The translations under genes were made by a program, and so were the position numbers. From positions 41,416,059-41,480,058 of the forward strand of contig CM053327.1 of NCBI GenBank assembly GCA_028583605.1: a stretch of DNA of 64,000 bases. The letters run 5' to 3'. The notes beneath the pieces are model-generated. The model did no database searches. It was given only the letters and a program-made list of their open reading frames with translations, and had not been told where the DNA came from. The stretch comes from Dastarcus helophoroides. Its lineage: Eukaryota; Arthropoda; Insecta; Coleoptera; Bothrideridae. Positions 10,203-59,639 of this stretch are shown in pieces. How positions within the stretch are numbered: the stretch's first letter is position 1; each line of letters starts with the position of its first letter.

Positions 10203-10450
10203 TTTTTGTTGGTGGAAGGAACTGGTCCTTGGTTATTTTCATAAATCCTGTCCCCTGAAACCAAGAAAGATTAAAAAAACACAACAGAGGTTGCTCTAAC
10301 GCGTTTCGATATCAAGCTATTATTTTCAGAGAGATTCTATCTCTCTAACTCTCTGAAAATGATAGCTTGCCTATCAAAACGCGTTAGAGCAACCTCTGTT
10401 GTATTTTTTAATCTGTTTTGGTTTCAGGGGACAAGATTTGTATTTCAACC
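10203..10450. mobile_element. FB foldback element, full palindrome
   Basis: Left arm: 'ttggtggaaggaactggtcc', then 'tgtcccctgaaaccaagaaa', 'aacacaacagaggttgctct' and 'aacgcgtttcgat'. After a short centre (10330-10355) the same words return inverted, ending 'tttcaggggacaagatttgt'. The arms are about 100 nt and nearly complementary, so the single strand would fold into one long hairpin. About 15 full or half copies of this family lie in the window. There is no coding capacity. It is a non-autonomous element of uncertain class. Confidence 0.85.
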
Positions 10451-11675: not shown

Positions 11676-11975
11676 CATCGAACCTCTATTTTTTTTGTTC
11701 CGGGTTTTGGTTTTCGTTCCGGGAAAAAATCATATCGGTTCCGTTCCGGTTTTCGTTCCGACAAAATTAGCGGTTTTTTCCGGTTTTCGGTTCAGTTCCA
11801 GCTTACTCATTTTTTAATTTTGTAAATTTTTCATTTAAATTGATTTTCTAACATCATTCAGGAAATCTTCTCCCTCTTTTTTAAATATTACAGCATATAA
11901 GTTCTGTGGTAATGCTCAAAATTTGAAGGAAATATTTCTCGATTTTTCGAATTTAAAAATTTCGATTTTAGATCT
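11676..11975 (+). repeat. Dispersed repeat Z, copy 1 (TTCCGG-rich)
   Basis: It matches 40781-41070. Both copies open with several 'gttccggttttcgttccg' words and continue through 'attacagcaNataa' to 'atttttcNNNtttaaaa'. No open reading frame runs through it. Class unknown. Confidence 0.7.
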
Positions 11976-12212
11976 CGTCAGATCTCGTAACAAGATCGAA
12001 ACCGGTATTTGGTTTCCAAAGTTGAATCTAATAAATGTTCAAACCTATTGGTCTGTGCATTAGAATCCTTGTCTTTTGGGAACTTTCCTAGAGAGCAACC
12101 GCTTCGCTAGGTGGCAGTGTTTCAACTGTTGGTAGTTCAGCTACCTATGATTTACTAGACACGCCGCCTGGAAGGCTGCATGAATTTGTAGTCTAGGTTG
12201 CATTCTACTTGC
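11976..12212 (+). repeat. Retrozyme-like repeat, 5'-truncated single copy
   Basis: It matches about 235 nt of the 370-bp tandem unit at 35.3-36.3 kb, from the stem II/GAAAC part of the ribozyme ('aacaagatcgaaaccggtat') to 'ttgcattctacttgc'. CTGACGA and the 5' strand of stem I are missing or scrambled, so no hammerhead can form. It ends at the same 'ctacttgc' point as the inverted partial copy at 35093-35292. Confidence 0.75.
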
Positions 12213-33744: not shown

Positions 33745-34183
33745 GCATGGATCACAGACTCCTACGAATATTCTATGTTATACAAAGTCTCCTCTAAAGG
33801 CTTCAATTAGAGACGTGTTCAGAAACCAGGTCCGGAATTTTTAATACCTGTTGTTGTTTTAACAAAAAATTGAAATACAAATCTTGTCTCCTGAAACCAA
33901 GAAAGATTAAAAAACACAACAAAGGTTGCTCTAATGCGTTTCGATAACCAAGCTATCATCGTCAGAGAGATATTTTGCTATCGAAACGCGTTAGAGCAAC
34001 CTTTGTTGTGTTTTTTAGTCTTTTTTGGTTTCAGGGGACAAAATTTGTATTTCAATTTTTGCAGATAACCAAGGACCAGTCCGTTTCCCAAAAAAAAAGT
34101 TGTTTTGATTGATTGATAAAGTTTAATCGTTATGATTATGAGTATTGAAGACTTCCACAAAGTAAGGGTTAGAAATGTCAATT
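33745..34183 (+). repeat. Dispersed repeat H3, copy 3, interrupted by FB
   Basis: Plus-strand H3 from 'catggatcacagactcctac' to 'ttagaaatgtcaatt', with its ribozyme region partly replaced (only 'gaaaccaggtccgg' remains at 33832-33845). An FB palindrome splits it at 33861-34098. Copy 1 at 100-302 serves as the empty site. Confidence 0.75.
33861..34098. mobile_element. FB full palindrome inserted in H3
   Basis: Left arm 'aattgaaatacaaatcttgt' to 'tcatcgtcagagagat', short centre, then the right arm to 'ccaaggaccagtccgtttcc'. It is flanked by GTTGTTTT at 33853-33860 and 34099-34106, an 8-bp direct repeat present once in the uninterrupted copy at about 229-236. This is the clearest insertion site in the window. 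Confidence 0.8.
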
Positions 34184-34802: not shown

Positions 34803-34944
34803 TTTTGGTGGAACAGTTTGCTCCTTGGTTATCTTCAATAATTGAAACACAAATCGTGCCCCCTGAAACCAAAAAATATTAAAAAACGCAACAAAGGTTG
34901 CTCTAACGCGTCTCGATAGCCAAGTTATCATCTTCAGAGAGATA
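34803..34944 (+). mobile_element. FB half-copy (left arm)
   Basis: Left arm from 'tttggtggaacagtttgctc' to 'atcttcagagagatac'. On the minus strand the ribozyme-like part reads CTGAAGA-T-...-GAGACGCG, with GAGA in place of GAAA, so the core is broken. Confidence 0.8.
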
Positions 34945-35092
34945 CTGGGGAAATAAGTTCACACGAATTTAGGAGAACGCAAAAATTCAAAATATAGGTA
35001 CAATCAAAACTAAGAAAAGGCCGAAATGTCGATAAAAAAATTCACATGTTTATTAATTTTATTTAACATTTCTACGACCCAGTTTGCAAGTA

Positions 35093-35292
35093 GAATGCAA
35101 CCTATATTACAAATTCTTGCAGCCCTCCAGGCGGCGTGTATAGTGAATCATAGGTAGCTGAACTACCAATAGTTGAAACTCTGCCACCTAGCAAAGCGGT
35201 TGCTCTCTAGGAAAAAGTTCCCAGAAGACAAGGATTCTAATGCACAGAACAATAGGTTTGAACATTTATTAGATTCGAAGTTTGGAAACCTA
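35093..35292 (-). repeat. Retrozyme-like unit, inverted partial copy
   Basis: Reverse complement of ~200 nt of the 370-bp unit, from 'ctacttgc' back to 'ggtttccaaacttcg'. On the minus strand it begins about three nucleotides after the predicted hammerhead cleavage site and ends at the point where the single copy at 11976-12212 ends. It lies head to head with the tandem array. Confidence 0.8.
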
Positions 35293-35457
35293 TACACGCC
35301 TGGAGGGCTGCATGAATTTGTAGTCTAGGTTGCATTCTACTTGCATACGACATTGTTGGCGATGGCCATAGTTTCTCTATGGACCAATAGGTGGTAGTAC
35401 TGAGTCACACGTTTGACGTCTGTGAATTTTTTAGTACTTGTCGGAACATTTGTTAGC

Positions 35458-35530
35458 ATTCGAGTTGGCTATACCAAACTGACGAGATCTAACAAGATCG
35501 AAACCGGTATTTGATTTCCAAACTTCGAAT
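35458..35530 (+). ncRNA. Type I hammerhead ribozyme, unit 1
   Basis: Outer stem I is ATTCGA (35458-35463) with TCGAAT (35525-35530), then GTTGG with CCAAAC, an internal loop, and ACCAAA with TTTGAT (one mismatch). The core CTGACGA is at 35479-35485. Stem II is GATCT-AACA-AGATC (35486-35499), then GAAA (35500-35503), the loopless stem III ACC/GGT, and triplet GTA (35507-35509). All invariant core positions are present. Very short stem III is typical of type I hammerheads in retroelements, which tend to act as dimers. Confidence 0.75.
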
Positions 35531-35830
35531 CTAATAAATGTTCAAACCTATTGGTCTGTGCATTAGAATCCTTGTTTTCTGGGAACTTTCCTAGAGAGCA
35601 ACCGCTTCGCTAGGTGGCAGTGTTTCAACTGTTGGTAGTTTAGCTACCTATGATACACTATACACACCGCCTGGAGGGCTGCATGAATTTGTAGTCTAGG
35701 TTGCATTCTACTTGCGTCCGACGTTGTTGGCGATGGCCATAGTTTCTCTATGGACCAATAGGTGGTAGTACTAAGAGTCACACGTTTGACGTCTGTGAAT
35801 TTTTTAGTACTTGTCGGAACATTTGTTAGC

Positions 35831-35903
35831 ATTCGAGTTGGATATACCAAACTGACGAGATCTAACAAGATCGAAACCGGTGTTTGGTTTCCTAACTTCG
35901 AAT
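35831..35903 (+). ncRNA. Type I hammerhead ribozyme, unit 2 (cleavage base changed)
   Basis: Same fold as unit 1, with CTGACGA at 35852-35858, stem II at 35859-35872 and GAAA at 35873-35876. The cleavage triplet is GTG (35880-35882) where its neighbours have GTA. A G at this position is not cleaved by hammerheads, so this copy is predicted inactive although the stems are intact. Confidence 0.7.
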
Positions 35904-36205
35904 CCAATAAATATTCAAATCTATTGGTCTGTGCATTAGAATCCTTGTCTTCTGGGAACTTTCCTAGAGAGCAACCGCTTCGCTAGGTGGCAGTGTTTCA
36001 ACTGTTGGTAGTTCAGCTACCTATGAATCACTATACACGCCTGGAGGGCTGCATGAATTTGTAGTCTAGGTTGCATTCTTCTTGCATACGACATTGTTGG
36101 CGATGGCCATAGTTTCTCTATGAACCAATAGGTGGTAGTACTAAAGAGTCACTCGCTTGACGCCTGTGAATGTTTTAGTACTTACTTGTCGGAACATTTA
36201 TTAGC

Positions 36206-36278
36206 ATTCGAGTTGGATATACCAAACTGACGAGATCTAACAAGATCGAAACCGGTATTTGGTTTCCAAACTTCGAAT
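36206..36278 (+). ncRNA. Type I hammerhead ribozyme, unit 3 (best preserved)
   Basis: Stem I: ATTCGA (36206-36211)/TCGAAT (36273-36278), GTTGG/CCAAAC, internal loop, ACCAAA/TTTGGT (36258-36263) fully paired. Core CTGACGA is at 36227-36233, stem II GATCT-AACA-AGATC at 36234-36247, GAAA at 36248-36251, stem III ACC/GGT, and triplet GTA at 36255-36257. The internal loop in stem I facing the stem II loop is where natural type I ribozymes make their tertiary contact. This is the copy most likely to cleave. Confidence 0.8.
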
Positions 36279-36318
36279 CTAATACATGTTCAAACCTATT
36301 GGTCTGTGCATTAGGAGG

Positions 36319-37159
36319 ACCCAGTTTGATTAATAAAAATATAAATATTTCCAAACTGGATGGTAAAAATGTTAAACAAAATTAATAAACATAATATTTC
36401 TGATCAATAACAGTCCACCATGAAAAATAAAAAATTTACAATCACGACTGAAAAATTTAAATTTCGACTGCATAATAGAGCAAATTGATACATACGTCAA
36501 AAGTGAAGTGGCAAGTTGTTGAAAGATGTAACTAAATTTCGAATTTAAAGTAAAATTTTTAAAATTAAAATTGGAGTTCTGATATGTCATTAAAATTTAA
36601 ACTTGCACGTCGAAAAACTGATTTTTTTTTGGTAAAGAAATGTTAAAAAACATTTTTTTCTGGAAAAAGTTTGAAATTTGTAAATACCGTTTTAAGTTGT
36701 GAATAAATATAGAATTAGAAAAATATTTTGTCAAAATTTTGTGCCCTAAAGTCGAAAACTCCAGATGAATGTAGAAGTTTTCGAGAAAAGAGAATTTCAC
36801 TTATGGTAACTCGAAATTTTAGTTTAAAATGGAATCTTCGAAACGAATTTTTTTGAAATTAAGACTCTTTTAAATACTTTTAACTCGAAATTTCTACCCT
36901 AAACTCGAAAAATTTCAATTTGACAGTAAAACTTTAATGAAAATATAAAGTGATTGTTTAAAAGAATGAGAATTTGATAGTAAAGTCTACAAATTCAAAA
37001 ATTTTAAATTTCAGAGTAGAAAAAATGTTTTTTTATAAATTAAGCCTTTTTTTCTAACAGTAACTTCCAAGTAAAACTTTAAAATCTACAAAAAAATTTT
37101 CACTTAGGACATTTTTCCAAATTTCGAATTTATTAAATTTTTTTACTATAATTTGGTGA
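36319..37159. repeat. AT-rich motif DNA
   Basis: Degenerate words as elsewhere. Open frames of about 70 codons on the minus strand are composition-driven. No longer period is evident. Confidence 0.55.
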
Positions 37160-37330
37160 TTCTTTTAAAAATTAAAATATAGAACTTGTCCCCTGAAATC
37201 AAGAAAGATTAAAAAACACAACAGTTCCTCTCTGAAGATGACAGCTTGGCTGTCGAAACGCGTTAAAGCAACCTTTGTTGTGTTTTTTAATCTTTCTTGG
37301 TTTCAGGGGACAAGTTTTGTATTTCAATAT
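37160..37330. mobile_element. FB copy with best hammerhead-like arm
   Basis: A truncated left arm ('acttgtcccctgaaatcaag') is followed by a complete right arm to 'caggggacaagttttgtatt'. The right arm has CTGAAGA (37232-37238), an extra T, stem II GACAGC-TTG-GCTGTC (37240-37254), GAAA (37255-37258), the self-complementary ACGCGT as stem III and GTT as triplet. Stem I (CTCT with AAAG) has one mismatch. It directly precedes the 280-bp array, whose units carry the same right arm. Confidence 0.8.
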
Positions 37331-39366
37331 AAAAAATAACTAGAAATGAAAGAATCTCAAAATTTCTCGACAAAATGTTTCCCAAGATTTCAATTTGAAA
37401 GTAGAAATTTTGCACTTAAAATTGAAGACAACTTACGATTAAAAATTCTATATTTAAATCAAAATTTCAATAAAAAGAGTTCGATAATATTAACTTAAAT
37501 TTTTTTTTAGAAAGTTTCTGATAGCTTGGCTGTAGAAACGCGTTAGAGCAACCTTTCCCCTGTCTTTTAATCTTTTTTGGTTTGAGGGGACAAGTTTTGT
37601 ATTTCAATACAAAAAATAACTAGAAATGAAAGAATCTTAAAATTTCTCGACAAAATGTTTCCCAAGATTTCAATTTTAAAGTAGAAGTTTCGCACTTAAA
37701 ATTGAAGACAATTTAGGATTAACAATTCTATATTTAAATTAAAATTTCAAGAAAAAAAGTTCGATAATATCAACTTAAAATTTTTTTAGAAAGTTTCTGA
37801 TAGCTTGGCCGTGAAAACGCGTTAGACCAACCTTTCCCCTGTCTTTTAATCTTTTTTGGTTTCAGGGGATAAGTTTTGTATTTCAATACAAAAAATAACT
37901 AGAAATGAAAGAATCTCAAAATTTCTCGCCAAAATGTTTCCCAACATTTCAATTTTAAAGTAGAAGTTTCGCACTTAAAATTGAAGACAATTTAGGATTA
38001 ACAATTCTATATTTAAATTAAAATTTCAAGAAAAAAAGTTGAATAATATGAACTTAAATTTTTTTTTAGAAAGTTTCTGATAGCTTGGCTGTCGAAACGC
38101 GTTAGAGCAACCTTTCCCCTGTCTTTTAATCTTTTTTGGTTTGAGGGGACAAGTTTTGTATTTCAATACAAAAAATAACTAGAAATGAAAGAATCTTAAA
38201 ATTTCTCGACAAAATGTTTCCCAAGATTTCAATTTTAAAGCAGAAGTGTCGCACTTAAAATTGAAGACAATTTAGGATTAACAATTCTATATTTAAATTA
38301 ATATTTCAAGAAAAAAAGTTCACTAATATCAACTTAAAATTTTTTTAGAAAATTTCTGATAGCCTGGCTGTCGAAACGCGTTAGAGCAACCTTTTCCATG
38401 TCTTTTAATCTTTTTTGGTTTCAGGGGACAAGTTTTGTATTTCAATACAAAAAATAACTAAAAATGAAAGAATCTCAAAATTTCTCGACAAAATGTTTGC
38501 CAAGATTTCAATTTTAAAGTAGAAGTTTCGCACTTAAAATTGAAGATAATTTAGAATTAAAAATTCGATACTTAAATGAAAATTTCAAGAAAAAAAGTTC
38601 GATAATAGCAACTTGAAATTATTTTTAGAAAGTTTCTGACAGCTTGGCTGTGGAAACGCGTTAGAGCAACTTTTGTCGTGTCTTTTAATCTTTCTTGATT
38701 TCAGGGGACAAGTTTTGCATTTCAATATAAAAAATAATTAAAAATGAAAGAATCTCACAATTTCTTGACAAAATGTTTCCCAAAATTTCAACTTTAAAGT
38801 AGAAATTTTGCACTTAAAATTGAAGACAATTTAGAATTAAAAATTCTATATTTAAATCAAAATTTCTAGAAAAAATTCGATAATATCGACTTAAAATTTT
38901 TTTTAGAACATTTCTGATAGCTTGGCTGTGGAAACGCGTTAGACCAACCTTTGTCGTGTCTTTTAATCTTTCTTGATTTCAGGGGACAAGTTTTGCATTT
39001 CAATATAAAAAATAATTAAAAATGAAAGAATCTCAAAATTTCTTGACAAAATGTTTCCCAAGATTTCAATTTTAAAGTAGAAATTTCACACCTAAAATTG
39101 AAGATAATTTAGGATTAAAAATTCTATATTTAAATCAAAATGTCAAGAAAAAAAGTTGAATAATATGAACCTAAAATTTTTTTTAAAAGTTTCTGATAGC
39201 TTGGCTGTCGAAACGCGTTAGAGCAACCTTTCCCCTGTCTTTTAATCTTTTTTGGTTTCAGGGGACAAGTTTTGTATTTCAATACAAAAAATAACTAGAA
39301 ATGAAAGAATCTCAAAATTTCTCGACAAAATGTTTCCCAAGGTTTCAATTTTAAAGTAGAAATTTC
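37331..39366 (+). repeat. 280-bp tandem array (~7.3 units) containing an FB arm
   Basis: Units start ('aaaaaataa') at 37331, 37611, 37890, 38170, 38449, 38729, 39007 and 39286, so the period is 278-280 bp. Each unit combines ~185 nt of AT-rich sequence ('gaaagaatctNaaaatttct', 'ttgaagacaaNttaNgatta') with ~95 nt of FB right arm ('gatagcttggctgtcgaaac', 'ttcaggggacaagttttg'). In all units the hammerhead-like core is shortened from CTGAAGATGATAGC to CTGATAGC. The array stops where repeat Y begins. Confidence 0.9.
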
Positions 39367-39368
39367 GG

Positions 39369-45878: not shown

Positions 45879-46105
45879 TTTGGTGAAACGGACTGGTACT
45901 TGGTTATCTTCAAAAATTTAAATACAAATCGAGTCCCCTGAAGCCAAGAAAGATTTAAAAAAAACACAACAAAAGTTGCCCTAACGCGCTTCGATAACCA
46001 AGCTGCCATCTTCATCTTGGCTATCGAAACGCGTTAGGGCAACCTTTGTTGTGTTTTTAATTTTTCTTTTCAGGGAACAAAATTTGCATTTCAATTTTCG
46101 AAGAG
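45879..46105. mobile_element. FB full palindrome
   Basis: Left arm from 'tttggtgaaacggactggta' through 'gagtcccctgaagcc' and 'aacgcgcttcgataacc' to 'ccatcttcatcttgg', then the inverted right arm to 'aatttgcatttcaattttcg'. The centre is very short, so the arms could pair almost fully. The ribozyme-like core is interrupted at the centre. Confidence 0.85.
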
Positions 46106-47925
46106 AAAGTCTAAATTTCCAGAATATTCAGCATTTTAATCAACATTTCTACACATCGAGATTGTAAATTAACGAAATTAAAAAAACTAATCTCTAAATA
46201 ACAGAATTTTGAAATCAAGGTAACATTTCGATAAAAATGGTCGAAATTTCGGTGGTGGACCGTCGAAATTTTTCAAAGAAAGTCAATTTTAGGAAAATGT
46301 CGAATTTTGAAATAAAATGGAAATTTGAGAACATATGAAACGAATCGAACATTCCGAAAAAGACGTAGCTCCAGCAAGATGACAAAACTTCCAGAAAACA
46401 ATAACATTTTTCCAGAGGAAGTTAATTTTAAACAAAACAATCAAATTTTGAGAATACTATTATTCTCAATTTGACTATTCCACTATTGACTATTGAAAAA
46501 GAGAATTTTGAACAAAAAAATTAAAATTTTGAGAAAAAGACGAAGTTTGAAGTAAAGTTGAGATTTGTAAGATCATAAAAGTAGAAAATTCAAAAAGACA
46601 ATTTTGAAAGACAGAAAAATGTTGAAATTTGGAGAAAAAGGCGAATTCAAAGGGAAAAAAATCCAAAAAAAAATAAATTTTGAAAAGAAATGGAATTTTC
46701 GAATAATAGATCAGAATTTCAAAACAAAAAGACCAAGTTTGAAGAAAAAGTCAATATTTCCAGAAATGGTAAATACCAAATTTTAAAATAAATATGAAAT
46801 TTTCGACAAAAAGTCATTAAGCAAATAGTCAAAATATCTGAAAGTTCTAATTTTAGCAGGAAGAAAATTTTAAAAAGGATGTAATGTTAAAAAAAATAAA
46901 CGAATTTCGAAAGAAACTTTGGAACTGAGAGAGAACATTTTGGTACAGTCAAATTAAAAAATTAAGTTCTGTGAATAAAAGTTAGATGAAAAAAGGATGA
47001 ATTTTGAAAAGAAAGAAGTCAAATTTTGGAGACGAATTCCCAGAAAAATTTTGCATAGAAAGTCAGATTTTCATGGTGTACGTTTATGAAAAAAGGGATT
47101 TTGAAAAAATCTTAAATGTTGCCAAAGAGATGAATTTTGACGAATATAATTAAAATTTCTGAAAACAAAAATGAATTATGAAAAAAAATTCCAAAAAAGG
47201 TAATACGAATAAAAGATCGAAATCTAATAGAAATTTAAAATGTCTTAGTCTTCAATTTTTTTTAAATTTCGAAATAAAATGTGTCAATTTCGAGAAAAAC
47301 TAAAATTTTTCTGGTTAATAATTTTTTTTTGACTACTCGAGACAAAGGTAGACAAGTGCCTCACCCTGACGTCAGAAAAAATTCAATATTAAAATGAATG
47401 TCCCCATTTTGAAAAATAAGTTGGAATTTTCAGAAAACTGGATTTAAAAATATCTCGAAAGATTTGAAATTTACAAAGCTTTCTAGAATTTTCGTCTCTT
47501 AAGAAAAATTGAGAATTTCCAAAAAAAAAATAATTTTTCAAAGTTTCTTCTTTTTTATCAAAAATCGTCCAGATTTTAAGGAAAAGGCAAATTTTGATAA
47601 ACACTTCGAAATTTGCGGAATACGGATTTTAAAAAAATGGTAATTTTCAAAAAACGCCGAATTGGGAAAAATGAAATTTTGTAGAAAAAACCGAAAATTT
47701 GGTGATTCTTTTAAAATTTTGTTTGAAAATTTCAACCTTTTCAAAATATCGACTTTTCTTTTTCAAAATTGTGTTTTCTTCAAAATCGTATCTTTTTCAA
47801 AATTTTCGATTACAACATTTAAATAATCAACTTTTCCAAATTTCAACCTTTTCTAAAAATTTCGACTTTTCTGGTCATTTTGACTTTTCTTCAACATTTA
47901 GTCTTCGAAAATTTCGTATTTTATA
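46106..47925. repeat. AT-rich motif DNA
   Basis: Degenerate words, mostly 'gaaattttgagaaaaa'. The orientation switches near 47700 to 'tttcaaaattttcgac', which continues to 50340. Open frames on both strands are composition-driven. Confidence 0.6.
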
Positions 47926-49604: not shown

Positions 49605-49770
49605 GTTTTGGTTGAACGGACTGGTCTTTGGTTATCTTCAAAAATTGAAATACACACACAAATACAGTTTCTCTCCGAAGATGACACCTTGGCTGTCGAA
49701 ATGCGTTAGAACAACCTTTGTTGTGTTTTTTAATCTTTCTTGGTTTCAGGGGACAAGTTCTCTATTTCAA
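49605..49770. mobile_element. FB copy inserted in 164-bp array, with 11-bp flanking repeat
   Basis: A short left end ('ttggttgaacggactggtct'), a central deletion, then a right arm ('gctgtcgaaatgcgttagaa' to 'ggggacaagttctctatttc'). TCCATAATTTT flanks it at 49594-49604 and 49771-49781; the uninterrupted 164-bp units have a single 'tcgataattttt' there. The ribozyme-like core reads CCGAAGA, one base off. Confidence 0.8.
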
Positions 49771-49781
49771 TCCATAATTTT

Positions 49782-55700: not shown

Positions 55701-57860
55701 CCTGCTAGTCCTAATGTTTGCTGAAAATTCCAACCTTGATCTTTGAAACACAGAACCTCCTATTCTTCCTAAGGTTGTCATTTCGTTGCCTGAAGTTATT
55801 ATCAGACAACAAAAAGTCAGGAAGATTCTACTCGGGCTCGATATATAGAAAGCTTTTGGCCTTGATGCTACCTCCGCTATTGTTCTTAAGAGGTGTGCTC
55901 CAGAGCTGACTACAGAGTTGCCACTACTTCCAAGGAAACAGCTGATCTGCTAGTCTTCAATTTTGCTGAAAATTCCAACCTTGATCTTTGAAACAGAACA
56001 ACAGAACAGAGCCTCCTATTATTCCTAAGGTTGTCACTTCCTTGTCTGAAGTTATTATCAGACAACACAAAGTCAGGAAGATTATCCTCGACTCGATACA
56101 TAGAAAGCGTCAGGTCTTGATCCTATCTCAGCTATTGTTCTTAAGAAATGTGCTTTAGAGTTAACTACATAGTTGCAACTATTTCCAAGAAAACAGCTGA
56201 CCTGCTAGTCTTAAGGTTTTTTGAAAATTCCAACCTTGATTCTTGAAACAGAGAACCTCAAATTCTCCCTAAAGTTGGCACTTCCTTCCCTGAAGTTATT
56301 GTCAGACAACAGGAAGTCAGGAAGATTATCCTCGAACTCGACACGTAAAAAGCTTCTGGCCTTGATGCTCTTCCCTCTATTGTTCTTAAGAAGTGCGCTC
56401 TAGAGTTGAGTACAGAGTTGCAGCTACTTCCAAGACAACAGCTCTGACCTGCTATTCTTAAGGTTTGCTGAAAATTCCAACTTTGATCTTTGATACATAG
56501 AACCCTCTATTCTTGCTAAGGTTGGCACTTCCTTGCCTGAAGTTATTATCAGACAACAAGAAGTCAGGAAGATTCTCCTCGAGCTCGATACTTAGAAAGC
56601 TTCTGGCCTTGATGGTATCTTGCTATTGTTCTTAAGAAGTGCGCTTCAGGGTTGACTACAGAGTTTCGACTACTACCAAGGAAACAGCTGACCTGCTAGT
56701 CTCAAGGTTAGCTGACAATTCCAACCTTGATTCTTAAAACAGTGAACCTCCAATTCTCCCTAAAGTTGGCACTTCCTTGCCTGAAGTTATTATTAGACAA
56801 CACAAAGTCAGGAAGATTCTCTTCAAACACGATACATAGCAAGCTTCTAGCCTTGATGCTAACCCCGCTATTGTTCTTAAGAAATGTGATCCATAGTTGA
56901 CTACAGAGTTGCAACTACTTCCAAAAAAACAGCTGACCTGCTGATCTTAAGGTTTGTGGAAAATTCCAACATTGATTCTTGAAACAGAGAATTTCCAATT
57001 CTTCCTAAAGTTGACACTTCCTTGCTTGAAGTTATTATCAGACAACAGGAAGTTAGGAAGATTGTCATCGAGCTCGATACGTAAAAAATCCTGGCTTTGA
57101 TGCTATTCCCGCTATTGTTCTTAAGAAGTGCGCTCCAGAGTTGACTACAGAGATGCAACTACTTCCAAGAAAACAGCTGACCTGCTAGTCTTAAGGTCTG
57201 TTGCAAATTCTAACCTTGATTCTTAAAACAGAGAACCTTCAGTTCTTCCTAAAGTTGGCACTTCCTTGCCTGAAGTTATTATCAGACAACAGATAGTCAG
57301 GAAGATTTTCCTCGAGCTCGATACTTAGAAAGCTTTTAGCCTTGATGGTATCCTGCTATTGTTCGTAAGAAGTGCGCTTCAGAATTGACTACAGAGTTGC
57401 AACTACTTCCAAGAAAACAGTTCTGACCTGCTAGTCTTAAGGTTTGCTGAAGATTCAAACCTTGATCATTGAAACAGGGAACCTCCAATTCTTCCTAAAT
57501 TTGGCACTTCCTTGCCTGAAGTTATTTTCAGACAACACAAAGTCAGGAAGATTCTCCTCGACTCGATACATAGGAAGCAGCTTCAGGCCTTGATGCTATC
57601 CCAGCTGTTGTTCTTAAGAAGTGCGTTCTAAAGTTGACTACAAAGTTGCGACTACTTCCAAGGAAGCAGCTGACCTGCTAGTCTTAAGGTTTGCTGACAA
57701 TTCCAACCTTGATTCTTGAAACACAGAATATCCAATTCTCTCTAAACTTAGCACTTCGATTATTGAACTTGTTTTCAGACAATGCACAGTTAGAAAGATT
57801 CTCCTCAAGCTCGACACATCACAAACTTCTGGCTTTGATGACATCCCTACTAATGTTCTT
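55701..57860 (+). repeat. ~245-bp tandem repeat x 9 (LINE linker/early RT segment)
   Basis: 'cctgctagtc' and variants start units at 55701, 55946, 56201, 56448, 56692, 56937, 57181, 57427 and 57674 (spacing 244-255). Each unit encodes the same stretch of ORF2, from ADLLVL...FAENSNLD to ...IVLKKCAPELTTELQLL, in scattered frames with stops. Short minus-strand frames across them are by-products. Divergence between units suggests an older expansion than the two downstream arrays. Confidence 0.9.
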
Positions 57861-57863
57861 CAG

Positions 57864-58500
57864 ATGAGTGTTCCAGAGTTGAGTAGTGTCCTAAGCATGA
57901 TTCTCCTCAAGCTCGACATATCCAAAGCTTCTGGCTTTGATGAAATCCCTACTATTGTTCTTCAGAAGAGTGCTCCAGAGTTGAGTAGTGTCCTAAGTAT
58001 GATTCTCCTCAAGCTCGACATATCCAAAGCTTCTGGTTTTGATGAAATCCCTACTATTGTTCTTCAGAAGAGTGCTCCAGAGTTGAGTAGTGTCCTAAGC
58101 AAGATTCTCCTCAAGCTCGACACATCCAAAGCTTCTGGCTTTGATGAAATCCCTACAATTGTTCTTCAGAAGAGTGCTCCAGAGTTGAGTAGTGTCTTAA
58201 GCAAGATTCTCCTTAAGCTCGACATATCCAAAACTTCTGGCTTTGATGAAATCCCTCCTATTGTTCTTCAGAAGAGTGCTCTAGAGTTGACTAGTGTCCT
58301 AAGCAAGATTCTCCTTAAGCTCGATACATCCAAAGCTTCTGGCTTTGATGAAATCCCTACTTTTGTTCTTCAGAAGAGTGCTCCAGAGTTGAGTATTGTC
58401 CTAAGCAAGATTCTCCTCAAGCTCGATACATGCAAAGCTTCTGGCTTTGATGAAATCCCTACTATTGTTCTTCAGAAGAGTGCTCCAGAGTTGAGTAGTG
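57864..58500 (+). repeat. 102-bp tandem repeat x 7 (RT 'KASG' block), in frame
   Basis: 'ttgagtagtg' or a close variant lies at 57879, 57981, 58083, 58185, 58287, 58389 and 58491, exactly 102 bp (34 codons) apart. Each unit encodes LLKLDxSKASGFDEIPTI and VLQKSAPELSSVLSK. The frame stays open for 232 codons (57864-58562) and ends at a TAG that replaces a Gln codon of the ancestral VQPVPKKG. Units are highly similar, pointing to recent expansion. Confidence 0.9.
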
Positions 58501-59639
58501 TCGTAAGCAAGTTGTTTACATATTCTTACGACCCTAAAATCTGGAAATCTGCTAGGGTGTAGCCTGTCCCTAAAAAGGGAAAAAGAAATCTGGATAAGAA
58601 CTACGCCCTGTATCTTTGTTGCCTGTTATATCTAAATTGATGGAAAATGTTACCAACGTTGAGATTTTCAAATATCTGGAGAAGAATAGAATCATCTCTC
58701 GGTTTCAGACAACAACGCTCAACTGGCGATCTAGTGGCTTATGTTACTCACATTTGTAATTCAGCTATTAGAAAACATGGCGAGACCAGGATTGTGACAT
58801 TGGACATCTCAAAGTCTTTGACAGGATCTAGCATCGATCTCTTCCCGCCAAATTAACGTCTTATGGTCTTCCTCCTGGAGTCTGTCATTTTGTCGTTTTC
58901 TCACTGATAGATATCTTCAGGTTGTCGTTGATGGTGTCTCATCCGAGACATTTGCGATTAATGCGATTAAACAAATAATTGCGCGATTTCACCAGCAGGC
59001 GCGGCATTTTCAATTGCGCTAATCTTAATTGATTAGCAATGGTCTTTCTCCTGGACTTTTTATTTGATATCTGACAACATGACATGATATCTGATATTTT
59101 TCGCTGACAGATCTCTTCAGGTCGTCATCGATGGCATCTCATCATTTGTGATTAATGCAGGGATGCCTCAGGGATCTGTTCTGTCTCCTCCTCTGTTTCT
59201 GTTGGACATAATCGATCTTTTAGCTTTAACTTCCAATCCGATATACGACTACGCAGATGATAGTAGCCTGGAGTCATCTTTTTTCTCCAACAAATCATCA
59301 TTCGTCGGTGCTTCAAATCAAGGGAACAGCAGGTACAGATGGTTAATCGGGATTTGGAAATCATTTTGGAATGGGATGAGCAAAATTGGGTCGACTTCAA
59401 TGCCTCAAAAATTTAGGCAGCGGTTTTCTCTAAGAAAACATCAAGGAATAATGCAACAATCATACTGATAGGCAGCAAAATCCTCCCAATGGGATTTAAT
59501 CTATCCTAGGAGTACATGTGAGCACCAACTTCTCTTGGGACGATCATGTGTGCGCCATTGCTAGAAGCTAGAGCTAAAAAGTACTTTACATTTTATTAGC
59601 TGCTCACTCTATACAAAGCTCAAGTTAGGCCAATACTAG

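Follow-up and report, generated by a model that had tools for sequence, protein, structure and literature searches.

The closest described systems are the metazoan non-LTR retrozymes and the Penelope-like elements. According to the available part of the report by Cervera and de la Pena (2020; PMC7229834), the former carry a type I hammerhead ribozyme in non-coding, dispersed tandem units of 150-450 bp with target duplications of more than 4 bp, have no LTR, PBS or PPT, and give rise to self-cleaved RNAs, both linear and circular. Mussel units measure 350-390 bp; low G+C and a circle predicted to be highly self-paired are further features of these retrozymes. The enzyme that moves them was left undecided in 2020 between LINEs and Penelope-like elements, Penelope being a strong candidate (same part of PMC7229834). 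Penelope inserts as head-to-head pLTRs with duplications of 8-10 bp and a 'tail' on one inverted copy (available part of PMC3846280); two internal starts of reverse transcription bound this tail, and both target strands are cut and extended (PMC11167929). Minimal hammerheads occur in Penelope pLTRs (PMC7761336, in part; PMC11167929), and amphibian and Penelope hammerheads are reported to pair as two sharing stem III (PMC7761336, in part).

We analysed a 64,000-nt stretch of Dastarcus helophoroides DNA (the window), in which an earlier note had described a direct tandem array of ~370-bp units, each with a type I hammerhead, and had assigned it to the retrozymes. The tandem units were confirmed, as positions 35285-36314 form a repeat with a period of 373, 2.8 copies and a match of 93%. 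The picture of a direct tandem was incomplete, because the array is one part of an insertion that is built head-to-head and has two recurrent ends; the extent first given covered the array without the inverted arm (35087-35289), the 11-bp duplication and a second copy at 11960-12212. The whole insertion, larger than the note had it, occupies 35087-36317 between 11-bp target duplications. Its features and those of its surroundings are listed here, with unit coordinates (u) numbered from the base following the predicted ribozyme cut and with sites A and B as defined below.

34805-34946, minus strand: pLTR fragment of Penelope-like family 2, close to the retrozyme, 1 of 31 matches in the window
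35076-35086, no strand: left copy of the target duplication, GACCCAGTTTG; its last bases overlap the element end (microhomology)
35087-35289, minus strand: inverted arm, beginning at the site A end (u206, CTACTTGC) and running back to u6
35290-36314, plus strand: direct arm, from u149 through three hammerheads to u57 (site B end, GCATTAG)
35461-35532, plus strand: hammerhead of unit 1, RF02275 at 30.0 bits, predicted cut after A35509
35833-35906, plus strand: hammerhead of unit 2, RF02275 at 34.7 bits, N17 = G35882, predicted inactive
36209-36280, plus strand: hammerhead of unit 3, RF02275 at 34.4 bits, predicted cut after A36257
36315-36317, no strand: junction bases GAG at the B end, matching neither the unit nor the duplication
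36318-36328, no strand: right copy of the target duplication, GACCCAGTTTG
11960-12212, plus strand: second, rearranged copy of the retrozyme family
10209-10448, 33865-34085, 45880-46107 and 49608-49771: examples of Penelope-like family 2 pieces

The inverted arm (~0.2 kb) is joined head-to-head to the direct array, and its inner limit, u6, lies near the predicted hammerhead cut (u1). In the second copy a short inverted hammerhead piece (11960-11981) stands on the left, and the direct part runs to a site A end on the right (12212). At the retrozyme position, the ORF list of the window contains none of 110 aa or longer. The two full units of the window copy differ by 5%, and units 1 and 2 have no private variants in common; hence an origin from a single circle gets no support from this copy.

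When the joined flanks served as query, at least 95 matching places or parts were found (40 scored of 2,428 candidates), and by our own count 18 places among the matches listed span the flank join (query position 87/88). Seven loci were inspected. Four of them (L072, L073, L075 and L076) have the site but no retrozyme, and their alignments cross it with small gaps, while L071 and L077 likewise contain retrozyme sequence, the latter with a 9-nt gap at the site, and L079 covers scarcely beyond one side of the join. In the empty sites of this host repeat the sequence of the left duplication is single-copy. The window insertion has a rearranged, inverted duplicate 25 kb past the window, L071 (G000:C3:41504982), with two B-type ends and a match of 92% over 1.2 kb. 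The host target itself (35046-35086 and 36346-36392) belongs to a palindromic repeat family that occurs many times in the genome.

Each of the three units carries, in order, a two-part stem I round an internal loop, CTGACGA, stem II (GATCT-AACA-AGATC), GAAA, ACCGGT and the cleavage-site base N17. For all three, the best Rfam family in cmscan was RF02275 (Hammerhead_HH9), with E-values of 4.4e-5, 1.4e-6 and 1.7e-6 for units 1, 2 and 3 respectively (for 1.6 kb searched). The type I hammerhead that had been reported in every unit was thus borne out by three RF02275 matches with the core bases present, and the covariance-model check proposed at the time gave significant matches throughout, though below the gathering score: no unit attained that score (52 for RF02275), nor did a match of any family in the window. 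A cleavable triplet had been claimed for units 1 and 3 and GTG for unit 2, in agreement with N17 being A, G and A at 35509, 35882 and 36257. The 96-nt piece including the third hammerhead folds at -29.5 kcal/mol (z -5.9), a value equalled by 0 of 200 shuffles. A scan with the hammerhead pattern gave 0 matches in the viral collection and 0 in the prokaryote collection.

We then aligned 40 of the 57 distinct junction copies of the hammerhead, at a mean column identity of 96%. In 32 of these 40, the catalytic core bases tested are intact together with the 15.1-16.1 pair, and N17 is cleavable. N17 is A in 32, C in 7 and G in 1, so it is cleavable (A or C) in 39/40, and the lone G is that of window unit 2. 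Stem III reads ACCGGT in 32/40, and standard pairs occupy 99.1% of the cells. Pairing-preserving changes, which the earlier note had set as a test, did not appear: neither the 40 hammerheads nor 39 whole units held compensatory changes beyond those of shuffles. As the copies are 94-96% alike and their changes mostly private, this test is weak, and its null result neither proves nor disproves the structure. Scores below the Rfam gathering threshold and the lack of covariation could also speak for a chance hammerhead-like match in an unrelated repeat; this explanation is barely credible in the face of a best unit E-value at the 1e-6 level, the full set of catalytic residues, the extended stem I and the cleavable N17 in 39/40 copies.

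Stem III is palindromic (ACCGGU) and lacks a loop, and one molecule is therefore unable to close it as a 3-bp hairpin. Because the stem is loopless and self-complementary, two hammerheads should share it, and cleavage should need paired (double) hammerheads, judging from the sequence. The RF02275 model, in contrast, has a stem III loop, and most invertebrate retrozyme hammerheads are reported, in the available part of PMC7229834, to cleave as monomers. The dimeric hammerhead repeats of the newt and axolotl type (PMC7229834, in part) resemble the present ones in their very weak stem III and in the double-hammerhead cleavage expected of them, but differ in unit length and insertion anatomy.

The genome searched comprises 539 Mb in 50 contigs. 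With one unit as query, at least 135 matches were found on 12 contigs; as only 40 of 1,937 candidates were scored, the copy number is a lower bound. We dissected 42 distinct insertions, namely 41 loci plus the second window copy, after four duplicate loci had been removed; being drawn from the best-scoring matches, they favour young and full copies. Whole-unit identity averaged 94.4% between loci and ranged from 93 to 99.5% within loci, and G+C was 42%. None of the 42 insertions, as delimited by unit matches, contains a stop-free stretch of more than 123 aa. The circle of the consensus unit is predicted to be highly self-paired, at -133.0 kcal/mol (z -7.7 against 60 dinucleotide shuffles). Private variants common to tandem units were strong in L008 (8 sites) and were found in one unit pair each in L042 and L011 (5 sites), while none occurred in the window copy or in L045. 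Such variants were therefore discarded as proof of a circular template, since the loci disagree.

The family shares with metazoan retrozymes the type I hammerhead in each unit, the unit length, the non-coding, dispersed tandem copies, the low G+C, the target duplications of more than 4 bp and the self-paired circle. The assignment made earlier on the ribozyme type and the ~370-nt non-coding tandem unit was strengthened by the dispersal, the duplications above 4 bp and the G+C of 42%, and the sequence features support the element as one copy of a dispersed non-coding retrozyme family of the metazoan type. It inserts head-to-head and has two recurrent internal ends, which the available part of PMC7229834 does not describe for retrozymes. 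A plant LTR retrozyme, with type III hammerheads in LTRs, a 4-bp duplication and PBS/PPT, was rejected, the ribozyme here being type I and the duplications 7-14 bp.

The 42 insertions possess 68 ends of the 3' (cDNA) type, which cluster at two sites. Site A (u204-220, after CTACTTGC(ATA)) accounts for 40 of them and site B (u56-69, after GCATTAG) for 22, and 6 lie elsewhere; hence 62/68 correspond to internal starts of the kind known from Penelope. The base after u206 is A in 27 of 28 A ends, followed by T in 23 and A in 24, and the unit itself reads ATAC at this place. As A ends continue like the unit, the true start is either about u207-210 or makes use of microhomology with the target. Head-to-head insertions with two 3'-type ends numbered 26 of 42, and 19 of these 26 combine one A with one B end, an arrangement like the Penelope pair with a tail on one copy. 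Among the 21 in which both ends could be classified there were 19 AB, 1 AA and 1 BB (permutation p 0.0004). The A/B pair is absent in L007, L025, L030, L031, L032, L033 and L041 (7/26); L007, L025, L030, L031 and L033 have an end at neither site, and in L032, the AA case, a Penelope insertion divides the retrozyme in two. The other 16 insertions are of single orientation by BLAST segmentation, and all 16 end at A; one of them, the second window copy, shows a 22-nt inverted piece under finer decoding.

Words of 7-14 bp shared by the two flanks were found in all 19 AB insertions and measured at least 8 bp in 16 of them. The word lies within 6 nt of both ends in 14/19, and 8-16 nt off an end in 5/19. 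Over the whole set, a word of at least 8 bp was present in 22/42 insertions compared with 5.6% of mismatched flank pairs; among the single-ended insertions only 5/16 had one of at least 7 bp. These results bear on the idea that the repeat is a degenerate satellite or tandem duplication, carrying the remnant of a hammerhead, which has lost RNA-based mobility or never had it. The window copy is indeed old, with full units that differ by 5% and a predicted inactive triplet in unit 2, and a rearranged duplicate lies 25 kb off; we nevertheless regard the idea as highly improbable in view of the 12 contigs, the target duplications, the empty sites and the recurrent ends.

None of the 68 3'-type ends could be confirmed as a start at the 3' end that the ribozyme would make (u373). 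By BLAST, L033 has an end at u372, which extends to u23 under finer decoding. The cut site was read through 92 times in 72 arms. Together, the read-through and the lack of starts at the ribozyme-made end indicate internal priming on a template that was a circle or had stayed uncut.

LINE insertions can acquire inverted 5' ends through twin priming, and a LINE-type (non-LTR) enzyme could have moved the retrozyme with the head-to-head form as ordinary twin priming. Target duplications of 7-14 bp are compatible with LINE and Penelope alike, and a tandem repeat in the window (57795-58562) resembles, by eye, a fragment of a LINE reverse transcriptase, a reading that concerns the translation of 57864-58562. 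This repeat has a 102-bp period, looks coding and is open for 232 aa; its Pfam matches look spurious. In LINE twin priming, however, only one end is the 3' end of the RNA, and the inverted part begins at variable internal places, whereas both ends here are recurrent internal sites of the RNA. Moreover, poly-A or simple-repeat tails were seen by eye at none of the 68 ends, and the rule of one A and one B end is common to a Penelope family of the same genome. We consider a LINE enzyme quite unlikely; compared with the Penelope families of this genome, the insertion ends favour a Penelope enzyme.

A helix is predicted between u49-60 and u194-206, with A facing B and most pairs at a probability of 0.85-0.97, and is kept in 24 of 39 single copies. 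That A and B lie on opposite strands of this predicted helix is taken as a hint only, since 7% of random position pairs fall in a common helix; the arrangement fits Penelope family 1 and not clearly family 2. In post hoc counts, cDNA 5' ends fell at u369-6 in 7/54 cases against 1.7 expected, and at u310-361 in 19/54 against 7.5 expected. The palindromic stem may bias joins toward the surroundings of the hammerhead cut. For the single-ended insertions, 5' ends lay at u53-79, near B, in 7/16 (also post hoc).

Penelope-like elements are present in this genome, with at least 91 GIY-YIG matches (150 scored of 1,070 candidates). Both proteins scanned have RVT_1 and GIY-YIG in one frame, over 417 and 393 aa between stops. 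The pieces retrieved contain no full-length open Penelope ORF, the longest stop-free stretch being 417 aa, and no solved structure matched a Penelope protein by sequence at E 0.001. In family 1 (L066 type) the copy ends fall at roughly two positions, separated by ~25-40 nt; three copies (L069, L049 and L047) are head-to-head and pair a longer end with a shorter one. Family 2 (L068 type) provided 21 head-to-head pairs: 16 AB, 1 BB, 0 AA and 4 with an unclassified end. The A/B rule therefore holds in 16 of 17 classified pairs (p 0.0006), and flank words of at least 8 bp occur in 10/21 compared with 7.6% of mismatched flanks. In the window, the 31 matches of family 2 amount to about one per 2 kb, as short pieces that are often head-to-head. 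A 280-bp tandem array at 37164-39367 (7.6 copies from 37239) derives from the family 2 pLTR and holds a hammerhead-like stretch, TGATAGCTTGGCTGTCGAAACGCGTT; the Rfam hammerhead models gave no match to this array at E up to 1.

Two family 2 insertions were found exactly at retrozyme site A, in L032 (906-1145) and L004 (837-1040). In L032 the piece lies inside the retrozyme, and its 14-bp duplication (ATACGACATTGTTG) begins at the A boundary; in L004 it lies at the retrozyme's own A boundary. About 0.01 such events were expected and 2 were seen, a rough post hoc estimate with n=2, for which we took ~141 kb of loci that contain 12 such insertions and ~90 A sites.

The retrozyme thus resembles Penelope in its head-to-head copies, the 3' extension on only one of them, the internal starts of reverse transcription and the 5' truncation, and its duplications measure 7-14 bp against 8-10 bp in Penelope. 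It differs in being non-coding, in a stem I that is longer and has an internal loop, and in the spacing of its starts: ~150 nt, compared with 30-40 nt in Penelope and ~25-40 nt in the Penelope families of this genome, a distance that counts against the Penelope explanation, as does the lack of nucleotide similarity between the unit and the 24 Penelope loci compared. Membership in Penelope was rejected, as the retrozyme has no ORF for a reverse transcriptase or GIY-YIG and none of its 42 insertions exceeds 123 aa without a stop. The retrozyme is not a Penelope element, yet it inserts like one.

The shared insertion anatomy may also be read in another way, with the 373-bp unit as the pLTR of a Penelope family not found here, that is, a non-autonomous deletion derivative and no separate retrozyme. 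The hammerhead-like motif of family 2, with its palindromic ACGCGU, points in this direction, and our comparison covered 24 Penelope loci only. Against it, the unit shows no nucleotide similarity to these 24 loci at E up to 1, the stop-free stretches are short as noted, and the unit is larger and highly structured. On balance we judge such a derivative unlikely.

The explanation that we prefer, with a probability of roughly three in four (about 0.74), is a retrozyme moved in trans by a Penelope-like enzyme from two internal RNA starts. Transcripts of the tandem units would carry the type I hammerhead, and two hammerheads would pair through ACCGGU to cut. The retrozyme RNA, as a circle or an uncut multimer, would be taken in trans by a Penelope-like reverse transcriptase with its GIY-YIG endonuclease. 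Each end of the staggered target would then serve as a primer; cDNA would start at site A of the RNA, just past CUUGCAUA (about u206-210), from one of them and at site B, GCAUUAG (about u57-63), from its partner. Joining of the two cDNAs head-to-head and filling of the gaps would leave the 7-14 bp target duplication, and use of the A start alone would give a simple 5'-truncated insertion. Because all 16 single-ended copies end at A, this site is presumably the first, obligatory start, and B the one that follows, with the other target strand as primer.

A further-reaching reading, to which we would give even odds, is that retrozymes and Penelope-like elements use one integration machine with two obligatory partner starts, one per target end. 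Every complete insertion would then be AB, the retrozyme RNA would mimic the start structure of Penelope, and the genomic A site would be a Penelope cut site. Penelope cutting at the genomic A site, if true, would also account for the growth of the array.

The clustering of 3'-type ends at two sites, and their pairing in head-to-head insertions, is new here: at the level of titles and abstract openings we found no report of mapped retrozyme insertion ends, and full texts may hold more. Paired recurrent ends in common with a Penelope family turn the old choice of enzyme into a testable claim that specifies the RNA starts and the DNA cut site. The combination of an A end with a B end is, moreover, a simple signature by which retrozyme insertions can be checked in other genomes.
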